This document shows, piece by piece, positions 48,840-51,914 of a stretch of DNA of 64,000 nt. The translations under genes were made by a program, and so were the position numbers. How positions within the stretch are numbered: position 1 is the stretch's first letter; every line of letters begins with the position of its first letter. Source of the DNA: Marivita hallyeonensis (lineage in GTDB: Bacteria; Pseudomonadota; Alphaproteobacteria; Rhodobacterales; Rhodobacteraceae). The stretch lies in assembly GCF_900129875.1 (NCBI RefSeq), contig NZ_FQXC01000002.1, forward strand, positions 1-64,000, given 5' to 3'. Below the pieces are notes generated by a model that worked only from the letters and a program-made list of their open reading frames with translations, did no database searches and had not been told where the DNA came from.

Positions 48840-49622
48840 TCAGGCCGTCAGGGATACCCAGACGGGCACGTGGTCGGACGGTTTTTCCCGGCCGCGTACA
48901 GCGCTTTCGATCCAGCAATCCGTCATCATGTCCGCACAGGCGGGCGTCAGCAGGAAATGGTCGATGCGGATACCATTGTTCCGTTCCCATGCACCAGCCT
49001 GGTAGTCCCAGAACGAATAATGCCCGCCGCCGTGCGTGCGTGCGCGGAAGGCTTCGGTAAAGCCTAGGTTCAGGATGCGTCGAAACGCCTGACGGGTTTC
49101 GGGCAGGAACAGCGCGTCCTTGGTCCATTGCTCCGGCTTCGCGGCATCCTCGGCTTGTGGAATCACGTTGTAATCCCCGGCCATCAGCGCGGGCATCTCG
49201 GCCGCCAGAAGCGCCTGTGCGCGCGCATGCAGCCGCTCCATCCACGCCAGCTTGTAGTCGTATTTCGGTCCGGGCGCCGGGTTGCCGTTCGGCAGGTACA
49301 GACCACAGACCCGAACAGCGTCCGTTTCACCCACGACCGTGGCCTCGATCCAGCGGGTCTGTTCGTCGTCGTCATCACCGGGCAAGCCGCGTGTGACGTC
49401 CTCCAAGGGCAGCTTCGACAGGATGGCGACCCCGTTGAAGCCTTTCTGGCCGTGTGTTTCGACCGCATATCCAAGCTCTTCGATGGCCTCGCGCGGGAAG
49501 GCGTCATCGACGGATTTGATCTCTTGCAGGATCGCCACATCCGGGGCGCTCTCGGTCAGCCAGTCTTTCAGGGCCGGCAGGCGCGCCTTGATCCCGTTGA
49601 TGTTGAACGTGGCTATTTTCAT
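48840..49622 (-). CDS. xth: Exodeoxyribonuclease III
   Basis: AP endonuclease and 3'-5' exonuclease of base excision repair, 260 residues. The N-terminal MKIATFNINGIKARL, metal-binding Glu in LQEIKSVD, catalytic Asp-Asn in GDYNV, and C-terminal SDHVPVWVSL with catalytic His are all present. The start at 49622 has GGGAGG; the longer frame upstream is not used. It is co-directional with bolA but 77 bases away. Confidence 0.95.
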   Translation of the reverse strand: MKIATFNINGIKARLPALKDWLTESAPDVAILQEIKSVDDAFPREAIEELGYAVETHGQKGFNGVAILSKLPLEDVTRGLPGDDDDEQTRWIEATVVGETDAVRVCGLYLPNGNPAPGPKYDYKLAWMERLHARAQALLAAEMPALMAGDYNVIPQAEDAAKPEQWTKDALFLPETRQAFRRILNLGFTEAFRARTHGGGHYSFWDYQAGAWERNNGIRIDHFLLTPACADMMTDCWIESAVRGREKPSDHVPVWVSLTA

Positions 49623-49776: not shown

Positions 49777-49899
49777 TTATCCACAAGAAATTTGCATTTG
49801 TGGACAAGCCAGAACCGCCAATTTCAAAAACAACCTATAGGCGAGTCCTCGTGTGGATAAGATCGCCTAGTACACGTTTAACGATATTCAATATTCACA
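49777..49899. promoter_or_regulatory. DnaA-box cluster in an AT-rich spacer
   Basis: The 333-base spacer 49623-49955 is clearly AT-richer than its surroundings. It has two perfect TTATCCACA boxes (49777-49785 on +, 49852-49860 on -) and two near matches (TTGTCCACA on - at 49799-49807; ATATTCACA on + at 49891-49899). TAGGCGA/TCGCCTA arms (49838-49844, 49863-49869) flank the second perfect box. This could be DnaA-dependent control of the repeat-protein gene. I see no other gene in the spacer. Confidence 0.55.
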
Positions 49900-49955: not shown

Positions 49956-50315
49956 ATGACCGCACTTCGTAAGTTCCAGATTACTGAAAACACGCAAGAA
50001 ATTCAGCAGGAATTCGCCGCAAGCGATATTCACGGCGGAGATGCAACTGCGCTCTTCACCTGCGGTCTCACTTCGACGTCTTCAGGCGACGTGATGCTCG
50101 GTGACGCGACCGAGATGTTCACCTGCGGCCTCGCCCCGACGTCTTCCGACAGCCGCACTGGTGACGCCGTTGAGGCTTTCACATGCGGTCTGGGGGTGAC
50201 CTCCACCGACAGCCGTACTGGCGACGCCGTCGAGGCTTTCACCTGCGGTCTCTCGGCATCCGCGTCCGACACACGCTCCGGTGACGGCTGCGCGCTGTTC
50301 ACCTGCGGCCTGTAA
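49956..50315 (+). CDS. FTCGL pentapeptide-repeat protein, 119 residues, unknown function
   Basis: A strongly repetitive protein I cannot assign. After a Cys-free, charged N-terminus (1-28, ending HGG) come five units of about 20 residues, each with GDA-x3-FTCGL and a Ser/Thr-rich linker (SSDSRT). Cys lie at 36, 57, 77, 97 and 117, spacing 21-20-20-20, plus Cys112; the protein ends in FTCGL. Units 3 and 4 share the 15-residue DSRTGDAVEAFTCGL, encoded with five synonymous differences. GGAGG precedes the ATG. The architecture (leader-like N-terminus, GG, Cys core repeats) resembles multi-core peptide precursors or metal-binding repeats; neither is proven. It is followed 65 bases on by an unknown gene. 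Confidence 0.8.
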   Translation: MTALRKFQITENTQEIQQEFAASDIHGGDATALFTCGLTSTSSGDVMLGDATEMFTCGLAPTSSDSRTGDAVEAFTCGLGVTSTDSRTGDAVEAFTCGLSASASDTRSGDGCALFTCGL

Positions 50316-50380
50316 TCCACGTATCTGACCCGGGGCGGGGTGGCCCGTCCTGTCGCCCGAAAAAAATGGAGGCATGGACA

Positions 50381-51451
50381 ATGACCAACGTCATTCAACT
50401 CACCCCCCCGTCCCGGATCAACCCGCAAGAGGCGCGCCTCGGCGCGCTTCTGAGCTGCTTCGCCCGCCACCGCCGCACCACGGACGATGTGTTCTGGCTC
50501 AAGGAAAACGCAGAGGTCCTCAACATCCTCGAATGCACCGGAACGCAACCTGGTGCCGAAGCGCTCAACCCCTACACCGAGTTTTACGCCAAGATCGAAA
50601 AGCGGCTGCAGTTCTTCCCGCAGTACTACCGGTTCTTTTTGTCGATCACCCTCGATCTGGAAGACCTTGGCATGCCGGGCGACCACGCGGAGCGTTTGAT
50701 CCGATGGGTCGCCGACAAGGACCTGCCGCAGAGCGAATTGTCCGACCTGCAAAGGTTCGAAGCCGTGCGCCTGATGACACGTCGCGGCGTGATGCCGAAA
50801 GGCGATATTCCGGCGCTTGAGGCCCGGGCGCGGGACTTCATGGCCCGGTCAGAGACATTCACACTGCCCAACAAGAAGGCCGCCTACGAACTCACGCATA
50901 TCGTGTTCTATCTGAGCGAATACGGCCGCCGCGATCCGCAGATTGACGCGCAGGCCAAGCGCAGTCTGCATTTCGCCGGGCTGCTGGCCTTCATCGAGCA
51001 GAACGCCGATCTGCTGTCGGAAATCTGCATCGCCATGCACTACGCAGGTGAAACGCCAAGCCCGCTCTGGACTGACTGGCTGAAACGCGAAACCGCGCTC
51101 TTCCATGTCGAGGAAGGATCACATGTCGGTCTGCAGGACGATTACCACGAGTTTCTGGTCTGCAACTGGCACCAGGCCGTCACCGGTGACCCGGCCTTCG
51201 TAAAGGGTTTCGCGTATGACCGGATGCGCTTCGATCACCGTCCCGGTCGCGCCACACCGATGCGAGAGATGTCCGAAGCGATGTTGAACATGGACGCGCG
51301 CAGCGGCGATTGGCTGACCATGCGCTTGCATATGGAAGACGCCCTGTCGCAAGAGGCCATGACGGTGCTCGACCAGGCCGAAACCTCATCACAGCACTTT
51401 GCGGACTTTTTCCACGGCTTCGCCCGCGCGGATCAGAGCGTCGCCCGCTGA
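50381..51451 (+). CDS. Unknown protein encoded after the FTCGL-repeat gene
   Basis: 356-residue soluble protein of a family I do not recognise. It looks mostly helical. Recurrent features are an N-terminal IQLTPPSRINPQEARLGALLSCFARHRR, a FEAVRLMTRRGVMPKGD segment, AYELTHIVFYLSEYGRRDPQ, and a C-terminal helical part with His- and Asp-containing segments (HVGLQDDYHEFLVCNWHQ) that could bind metal. No known enzyme motif is visible. The ATG at 50381 was preferred because GGAGG lies 8 bases upstream; an ATG at 50366 overlaps that site. With the repeat gene it forms a two-gene unit, so it could modify, bind or export the repeat peptide. Confidence 0.78.
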   Translation: MTNVIQLTPPSRINPQEARLGALLSCFARHRRTTDDVFWLKENAEVLNILECTGTQPGAEALNPYTEFYAKIEKRLQFFPQYYRFFLSITLDLEDLGMPGDHAERLIRWVADKDLPQSELSDLQRFEAVRLMTRRGVMPKGDIPALEARARDFMARSETFTLPNKKAAYELTHIVFYLSEYGRRDPQIDAQAKRSLHFAGLLAFIEQNADLLSEICIAMHYAGETPSPLWTDWLKRETALFHVEEGSHVGLQDDYHEFLVCNWHQAVTGDPAFVKGFAYDRMRFDHRPGRATPMREMSEAMLNMDARSGDWLTMRLHMEDALSQEAMTVLDQAETSSQHFADFFHGFARADQSVAR

Positions 51452-51506: not shown

Positions 51507-51830
51507 CTACATCGAAAAACTGGTGCCGCATCCGCATGAGGATGTGGCGTTCGGGTTTTGGATCACGAACCGCGCGCCGATCAGCTCCTCGGAGAAATCG
51601 ATCACCGCATTCGACAGAAACGGCAACGAGATGGAGTCCACCACGACCCGTTCGCCGTGTCCTTCAAGGACCAGATCGTCCTCGGCGGGCTCATCCAGCT
51701 TGATGTCGTACTGAAACCCGGAGCACCCGCCGCCTTCGACCGCAACGCGCAGTGCCTTGCCCTCTGCGCCTGCGCCGATCTCGGACAAACGTTCGAACGC
51801 ACGTTCTGTGACTTTTGGGGGAAGCTGCAT
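51507..51830 (-). CDS. erpA: A-type iron-sulfur insertion protein (ErpA/HesB family)
   Basis: 107-residue A-type Fe-S carrier with the three ligand Cys: Cys36 in GGGCSGFQY, and Cys99 and Cys101 in SCGCGTSF at the C-terminus. It delivers clusters to apo-enzymes. The ATG at 51830, with GAGGG upstream, gives the family's normal length; a TTG 11 codons earlier is unlikely. It is divergent from dgt across 84 bases, a common arrangement in Rhodobacterales. ErpA and IscA are hard to separate by sequence alone. Confidence 0.88.
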   Translation of the reverse strand: MQLPPKVTERAFERLSEIGAGAEGKALRVAVEGGGCSGFQYDIKLDEPAEDDLVLEGHGERVVVDSISLPFLSNAVIDFSEELIGARFVIQNPNATSSCGCGTSFSM

Positions 51831-51914
51831 GTTGCCCTCGGCTACGCTTTGATTTGTGCTCAACCCTCAATATAAGGATCGGCGGGACAGGCGACAAGAA
51901 CAGGCGGTGCGGCG

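Follow-up and report, generated by a model that had tools for sequence, protein, structure and literature searches.

What is the role of a small bacterial protein that carries the same five residues, FTCGL, five times over? The question is raised by an open reading frame (ORF) in Marivita hallyeonensis (Rhodobacteraceae), found at 49956–50315 of a 64,000-nucleotide stretch of contig NZ_FQXC01000002.1 (positions 1 to 64,000, forward strand; hereafter 'the window'), which an earlier note, made from the DNA alone, had taken for either a multi-core peptide precursor or a cysteine ladder for metal. We propose, with moderate confidence, that this ORF supplies the substrate in a two-gene cassette for peptide maturation, and that together with the adjacent DUF6902 gene it forms a multi-core system resembling those of ribosomally synthesized and post-translationally modified peptides (RiPPs), in which the core is probably epimerised. 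The pair itself is a real, selected and widespread two-gene system, carried by many marine bacteria and undescribed beyond a DUF number in the libraries and literature that we searched: its gene pairing, its unit grammar, the selection on its cores and the loss of a conserved histidine in two array-less genes are all established by comparison. The elements of the pair are as follows.

49956–50315 (stop codon included), forward strand: multi-core precursor-like protein of 119 residues and five units (from the ORF reading and homologous arrays)
49956–50036, forward strand: leader, residues 1–27 (from alignment)
50037–50069, forward strand: unit 1, GDATALFTCGL (anchor G-x5-F plus core)
50100–50132, forward strand: unit 2, GDATEMFTCGL
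50160–50192, forward strand: unit 3, GDAVEAFTCGL
50220–50252, forward strand: unit 4, GDAVEAFTCGL
50280–50312, forward strand: unit 5, GDGCALFTCGL, the C-terminal end of the protein
50381–51451, forward strand: DUF6902 protein, probable maturase (Pfam E 5.2e-176; DUF6895 E 1.6e-26)

The array and DUF6902 genes occur as a pair

Across a sample of 295 Rhodobacteraceae genomes, DUF6902 is present in 82, and a search with the window precursor directly matched 61, all of them DUF6902-positive and each with its match adjoining the DUF6902 gene; the 213 DUF6902-negative genomes gave no match to the precursor query. The FTCGL array is thus beyond chance, and the search for repeats and co-occurring genes that the earlier note had proposed, made here across the family, returns arrays paired with DUF6902. 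Direct matches are lacking in 21 DUF6902-positive genomes: in 18 of these an array lies upstream (recognised by eye or by script), one (G139) reaches a contig end and is hence untestable, and two (G039 and G288) have none, so that an array precedes DUF6902 in 79 of the 81 testable genomes. Similarly, of the 80 named loci, which are the best among 291 candidates, 79 contain an array; the remaining one, L092, is masked by Ns. When the search was extended to the class, DUF6902 passed its cut-off in four of 385 genomes, all of them Rhodobacteraceae. One record, L118 (JAFKDC010000021.1), is named Enemella evansiae, which we take to be an actinobacterial name; since its array is the same as that of G002 from the Rhodobacteraceae group, the record is probably misnamed or mixed.

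The precursor gene is single-copy in its own genome. A long minus-strand ORF (50030–50752) overlaps most of it together with the start of the DUF6902 gene, and is taken for an antisense artefact. RiPP systems are marked by a precursor gene that co-occurs with a maturase gene, and here the co-occurrence is seen in the same 79 of 81 genomes, with DUF6902 as the presumed maturase. That the DUF6902 protein acts upon the array, the two being enzyme and substrate, is what these comparisons strongly suggest.

Unit grammar and core diversity

The ORF opens with an ATG that has AGGAGG just 5' of it, and its FTCGL motifs end at residues 38, 59, 79, 99 and 119 (spacings of 21, 20, 20 and 20), the last being the exact C-terminus of the protein. 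The earlier description of five cysteine-bearing units about 20 residues apart is therefore confirmed by reading the ORF, and a sixth cysteine, absent from that description, stands at residue 112. Units 3 and 4 have 15 residues in common (DSRTGDAVEAFTCGL) and five synonymous third-base differences, a point of the same note that can be read directly from the sequence. Tandem Repeats Finder, at its lowest threshold, reports 2.1 copies of a 60-bp unit, which indicates that the array has already diverged at the DNA level and that the peptide has been kept.

We sought units in the relatives from the anchor glycine and chose them by core similarity (at least three of five residues; 'core-picked' below). 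Excluded were two loci masked by Ns (L031 and L092), one masked in part (L120), one at a contig end (L167), two in other registers (L122 and L179), one without an array (L181), and all arrays of fewer than three units; L163 and L164 yielded no array. In the resulting 115 arrays the register is G-x5-F followed by four core residues, with the phenylalanine present in 785 of 844 units and successive anchors 20 or 21 residues apart in 674 of 729 cases, and 77 of the 115 proteins end exactly on a core. The start of the leader, M-T/S-A-x-x-K, is kept in most of 15 aligned relatives. The two glycines at residues 27–28 do lie where the earlier note placed them, but they are not a cleavage signal, because the second is the anchor of unit 1 and the first is an aspartate or threonine in many relatives; with DG or TG in place of GG (LDGD, LTGE), the arrays do not have the double-glycine leader of C39 export.

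The cores themselves are diverse. There are 33 kinds of majority core in the 115 arrays, the commonest being FTSGS (23), FTSWS (17), FSSGS (16), FTSGL (12) and FTSGA (7), with FTCGL in two, and 38 kinds in 120 arrays when two-unit and odd arrays are included; they range from FTSGS to MMCCS and FTNWC. Within Marivita alone they include FTSGS, FTSGL, FTSAS, IMSAS and FTTSC, the last of which has its cysteine at another place. At the position of the window's cysteine, the 120 arrays have serine in 106, threonine in eight, cysteine in four, and asparagine and alanine in one each. As this position varies and is usually serine, the FTCGL array is the form that a wider peptide family takes in one species, and the multi-core reading is both supported and extended by the relatives' arrays and their grammar.

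Several arrays depart from the common layout. Shimia-type arrays (L101, L015, L113 and others) have 8-residue mini-repeats (VQMFTSGL) after normal units, in which the core is doubled without its box. Most of the G-x5 boxes have gone from L120 (Salipiger) and L122 (Citreicella), where TSCA cores stand close together. Mixed arrays occur in L165, L168, L174, L141 and L094, for example with STSC units between FSSGS ends or with CSWS and SSLS alternating, and may be intermediates of core switching.

The DUF6902 protein and its proposed chemistry

The conserved start MTNVIQL places the beginning of the DUF6902 gene at 50381 (the ORF list has 50366). Its product belongs to DUF6902 (PF21843; 585 bits against a cut-off of 27, over positions 1–351 of the 351 in the profile) and to the DUF6895 superfamily (PF21836; 93.8 bits against 23.8, over positions 13–233 of 289). 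Three shared motifs, YxLTHxxFY..[DE]xG, DLxxE and YH, were sought by regular expression and occur together in 111 of 120 DUF6902 proteins and in nine of nine DUF6895-type proteins. Residues H178, D215 and E219 are present in all 120 aligned array-linked DUF6902 proteins, and H261 in all 117 that have a letter at that column; these 120 rows, also used for the tree below, leave out L031, L181, L120, L167, L154 and L173, and the motif residues are present as well in five of those (L154, L173, L167, L120 and L031). Both H178 and D215 are lost in the two array-less DUF6902 genes, L164 (G039) and L181 (G288), whose proteins are probably relics or have been re-purposed.

We propose that the precursor comprises an N-terminal leader followed by several units, where each unit would be made of a recognition box, G-[D/E]-x-[V/T]-x-x, and, directly after it, a five-residue core (F-T-C-G-L here), with loose spacers between units. 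The DUF6902 enzyme would recognise the leader and/or the box and modify every core in turn, and since leader and boxes are the constant parts of these proteins, it most likely reads both. The most likely chemistry would be inversion of an alpha carbon (epimerisation) in the core, probably at the Ser/Cys/Thr position, with acid–base residues such as His178, Asp215, Glu219 and His261.

Epimerisation is a weaker suggestion than the pairing, and one that we hold only tentatively, by analogy. It is our best guess in part because the most constant core position accepts serine, cysteine, threonine, asparagine and once alanine, residues that have an alpha proton in common and no common side-chain reaction, and in part because the sister family is reported to perform it: a DUF6895-family protein is a lasso-peptide epimerase according to the title of Shi et al. 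(ACS Catal. 2026, cited in PMC13352647). DUF6902 is homologous to DUF6895 and has the three motifs in common with it, whereas the presumed substrate in the window is an array of five-residue cores rather than the lasso peptide of that title. Neither a lasso cyclase nor a B-protein gene could be recognised next to the pair, where ORFs were crudely clustered and judged by eye. The lasso-peptide epimerase MslH is described in PMC10406935 as inverting its substrate through acid–base catalysis by two His/Asp pairs within a calcineurin-like fold with Ca(II). The two near-invariant histidines and the acidic residues of DUF6902 recall those pairs, and acid–base inversion may be carried over by analogy; the folds differ, as the predicted DUF6902 model (pLDDT 91.5) is nearly all helical.

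It is conceivable, although we think it unlikely, that the same enzyme acts on the same substrate by another core modification, such as dehydration, acylation or lipidation, or hydroxylation. The solved folds nearest to the DUF6902 model include a protein prenyltransferase beta subunit and terpene cyclases, and the cores are rich in serine, threonine and cysteine, both of which would suit this alternative. For the fold comparison, Foldseek gave no match below E 0.2, and the DUF6902 profile found no relative among PDB sequences at E up to 1. Set against it, no single side-chain chemistry easily fits a candidate site that may be Ser, Thr, Cys, Asn or Ala, and the sole family member for which an activity has been reported is called an epimerase in the title of Shi et al. 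When DUF6902 columns were compared with the presence of tryptophan in the core (the only core feature tried), the candidate columns followed the main clade, and no column tracking Trp-containing cores was shared by all four other lineages.

Less probable still is that the array remains whole and acts as a repeat protein, a beta-solenoid or amyloid-like scaffold, for which DUF6902 would be a dedicated chaperone or modifier. Most units do keep a period of 20–21 residues, and a low-confidence model has a strand at every core. Yet the period is not fixed, unit number runs from two to 20 per array, so that some arrays consist of two units only, the Shimia-type arrays insert their 8-residue mini-repeats, and the cores vary across the full range given above.

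Selection keeps the cores of an array alike

Within arrays, the core codon pairs of core-picked units are synonymously different in 41% of cases and nonsynonymously different in 1.7%, against 25% and 42%, respectively, for the spacer codon pairs of the same units, and the ratio of nonsynonymous to synonymous codon-pair differences is 0.04 in the core, 1.18 in the box and 1.65 in the spacer. Because picking by core similarity lowers the core nonsynonymous figure and inflates within-array identity, we ran the test again on units chosen from scaffold letters alone (114 arrays and 916 units, some of them in the wrong register): core identity was then 0.82 within arrays and 0.50 between them, and 200 permutations gave a mean of 0.52 and a maximum of 0.53. 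The same four core letters occur in every detected unit of 114 of the 120 arrays, which is an upper estimate as the units were core-picked, and which misses the other cores that L165 and L174 hold.

On the DUF6902 tree of 120 rows, core type requires no fewer than 55 changes, compared with 88 on average, and never below 82, when labels are shuffled (100 shuffles), suggesting that cores follow ancestry in part and switch often, on what is a quick tree with 50 of its 117 inner branches open. A recent switch illustrates how uniform the outcome is: the DUF6902 proteins of L008 and L106 are 95.4% identical, and the arrays carry FTSGS in all seven units and FSSGS in all six, respectively. In the four units whose spacers can be matched between these loci, the exchange is threonine against serine every time, with the third base also different in two of the four.

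It is very unlikely that this uniformity arose from recent duplication or gene conversion of whole units rather than from selection. Some arrays (L003, L008 and L062) do contain near-identical tandem units, but the excess of synonymous over nonsynonymous change in the cores, lowered though the latter figure is by picking, stands beside freely changing spacers, the scaffold-picked units agree with selection on the core, and a state in which most arrays have core codons as poor in synonymous as in nonsynonymous change was not seen. The comparisons thus indicate that some requirement keeps all core copies in a genome alike. The claim that the peptide itself is under selection, made in the earlier note from units 3 and 4 of the window, is upheld by the conservation of cores through synonymous change, by the scaffold-only test and by the coordinated Thr/Ser exchange.

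The metal reading of that note, a cysteine ladder for metal or redox or a cysteine cross-linked peptide, is hardly credible and is refuted as a family function: the window protein has six cysteines, and cysteine stands in the majority core of 18 other arrays among the 120 (19 when that of the window is counted), but 101 of the 120 have none there, cysteine is absent from the window's position in 116, most Marivita relatives have a core without it, and the conserved cysteines of a metallothionein-like protein are not found in the arrays.

Relation to known systems and to the wider DUF6895 family

At the limits used, searches of Pfam, NCBIfam and PADLOC gave no match to the window precursor, and its single match in PHROGs (E 0.039) is not credible. 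With 15 array proteins and E up to 1, matches are scattered over 32 Pfam and 18 NCBIfam families, any one of them in at most three members; these include small E-values (zf-FCS, 1.6e-11, in one protein; Herpes_UL35, 6.8e-10, in two), and we take them all for chance sums over identical repeats.

Graspetides and cyanobactins are RiPPs with multi-core precursors, in which several cores and recognition sequences lie in one precursor. The cores described here differ from those in being five residues long, near-uniform per genome, variable between species, and served by one enzyme gene. Yeast alpha-factor-type pheromone precursors are likewise made of tandem identical short peptides with spacers and are species-specific; our arrays, by contrast, have no signal peptide by eye and no known protease or receptor gene, and the likeness is pure analogy. 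Among the recurrent neighbours directly beside the pair, no peptidase or peptide exporter was recognised (from crude ORF calls, by eye). A ribosomal precursor with a leader or recognition sequence and a variable core, as defines a RiPP, is what the arrays present, and the system would best be filed as a kind of RiPP, pending its chemistry.

Repeat stretches of three of the 15 array proteins gave weak NCBIfam matches to the FlmA-family RiPP (NF052472), which we reject, as one relative reached 14.1 of the 30 bits needed and the window protein had no match at E up to 1; PMC12703449 describes FlmA as a precursor of the DD(I/V)LF type on which a peptide arginase acts. We also set aside PMC10676384 as a description of the DUF6902 family, since it deals with a radical-SAM epimerase and DUF4135. 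A literature search, thin on subscription journals, found DUF6902, DUF6749 and FTCGL unmentioned and DUF6895 only in one reference list, and the listings from wider searches had nothing on an array/DUF6902 system. The earlier statement that no described system has this repeat thus holds as far as family libraries and literature were tested.

Outside Rhodobacteraceae, DUF6895 genes are rare in our sample: a phylum-wide set of 398 genomes has 11 with a match over the cut-off, eight of the 11 being Rhodobacteraceae, and in two further families DUF6895 occurs in one of 144 and one of 151 genomes, in each case the starting genome only. Eight loci were read there (L162, a 38.9-bit DUF6895 match in G242, and the sub-cut-off G738 and G748 lie outside this set), and in seven the DUF6895 gene is preceded by a short ORF, immediately in six of them: L158, L159, L160, L183 (Kitasatospora), L184 (Pseudalkalibacillus), and L185 and L186 (Streptomyces), but not L161. 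The loci with such precursor-like ORFs span Actinomycetota, Bacillota and Proteobacteria. L186 is the weakest case, with two genes between the best-matching short ORF and the DUF6895 gene; this locus also has two DUF6895 genes in tandem. The other six short ORFs have a common start with an SGLID/SGIIN/AGIVD-like motif and aromatic-rich segments (for example VGPWFVL, ADWTFVSPNYVYKG and SGYVLAWDKYVLV), and several have a Gly-x-x-Val/Leu box before the aromatic segment that, judged by eye and without statistics, resembles the G-D-x-V box of the arrays. A DUF6895 query found no match in a phage collection, and a DUF6902 query none in a plasmid collection.

Genomic setting and DnaA boxes

The pair lies between two flanking genes, and DnaA boxes lie in the promoter region. 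The neighbouring features are as follows, where the consensus TTATCCACA is what we take to be an exact DnaA box.

48840–49622, reverse strand: exonuclease III-type gene (xth), left border of the cassette (Pfam Exo_endo_phos)
49777–49785, forward strand: exact DnaA box TTATCCACA, in the promoter region
49799–49807, reverse strand: DnaA box with one mismatch (TTGTCCACA)
49852–49860, reverse strand: exact DnaA box TTATCCACA
51507–51863, reverse strand: HesB/IscA-type Fe-S gene, right border of the cassette (Pfam Fe-S_biosyn)

In six cassette-less genomes, read by eye, the sequence upstream of xth runs into the end of the Fe-S gene, from which it follows that the pair and its promoter behave as a cassette present or absent at one site.

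The exact boxes at 49777 and 49852 are the only two in the window, where 0.19 would be expected and three of 100 shuffles reach two. Of 117 loci, 67 have at least one exact box within the 400 bases that precede unit 1; over all 117 the density there is 0.906 per 400 bases, compared with 0.0018 in the rest of these loci. It might be thought that the boxes belong to the neighbouring xth gene, but this was rejected: among the best 30 xth matches, which are these 29 genomes plus G039 (no box), an exact box lies within 500 bases upstream of xth in none of 12 cassette-less genomes and in 10 of 17 with the cassette. The two array-less loci, L164 (G039) and L181 (G288), are without exact boxes upstream. 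Nor do the boxes seem to mark a chromosomal origin. In G141, the one genome sampled, the locus at 2.57 Mb lies inside a mostly negative GC-skew arm (20 samples of 20 kb, of which one nearby, at 2.45 Mb, is weakly positive); in view of the lack of a lasting skew switch at that site, regulation or titration by DnaA appears likelier than an origin.

Other candidate signals were less clear. The motif TTAA-N7-TTAA, which we presume to be that of CtrA, occurs in eight of 116 promoters against 0.8 in mononucleotide shuffles, an enrichment with too few sites for a claim. A recurring GTGCAAGC stretch lies upstream of the array gene in 27 of the 116 promoters, near a TTAAC-type stretch in the printed cases. 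A stem-loop between the precursor and DUF6902 genes, considered as an attenuator, was no better than shuffles (z 0.61).

What the cassette may mean for the Rhodobacteraceae

We speculate, as an idea that we ourselves consider improbable, that the cassette represents an unrecognised yet widespread minimal class in which one enzyme inverts the alpha carbon of a Ser, Cys or Thr in each core to yield a species-specific D-residue peptide in many copies under DnaA-linked control, and that the coordinated replacement of cores would reflect a recognition code, for example a self or kin signal. Through its DnaA boxes the cassette is linked to the replication initiator, and the joint switching of cores points to a specificity function; core copies that are uniform and that switch together between species offer in themselves an unusual view, in nature, of how selection acts on repeated peptide motifs. 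If the enzyme–substrate reading is true, the maturase family gains a natural substrate grammar of box and core, and a large share of the Rhodobacteraceae (82 of the 295 genomes sampled) would make a peptide family that is unnamed in the libraries scanned.
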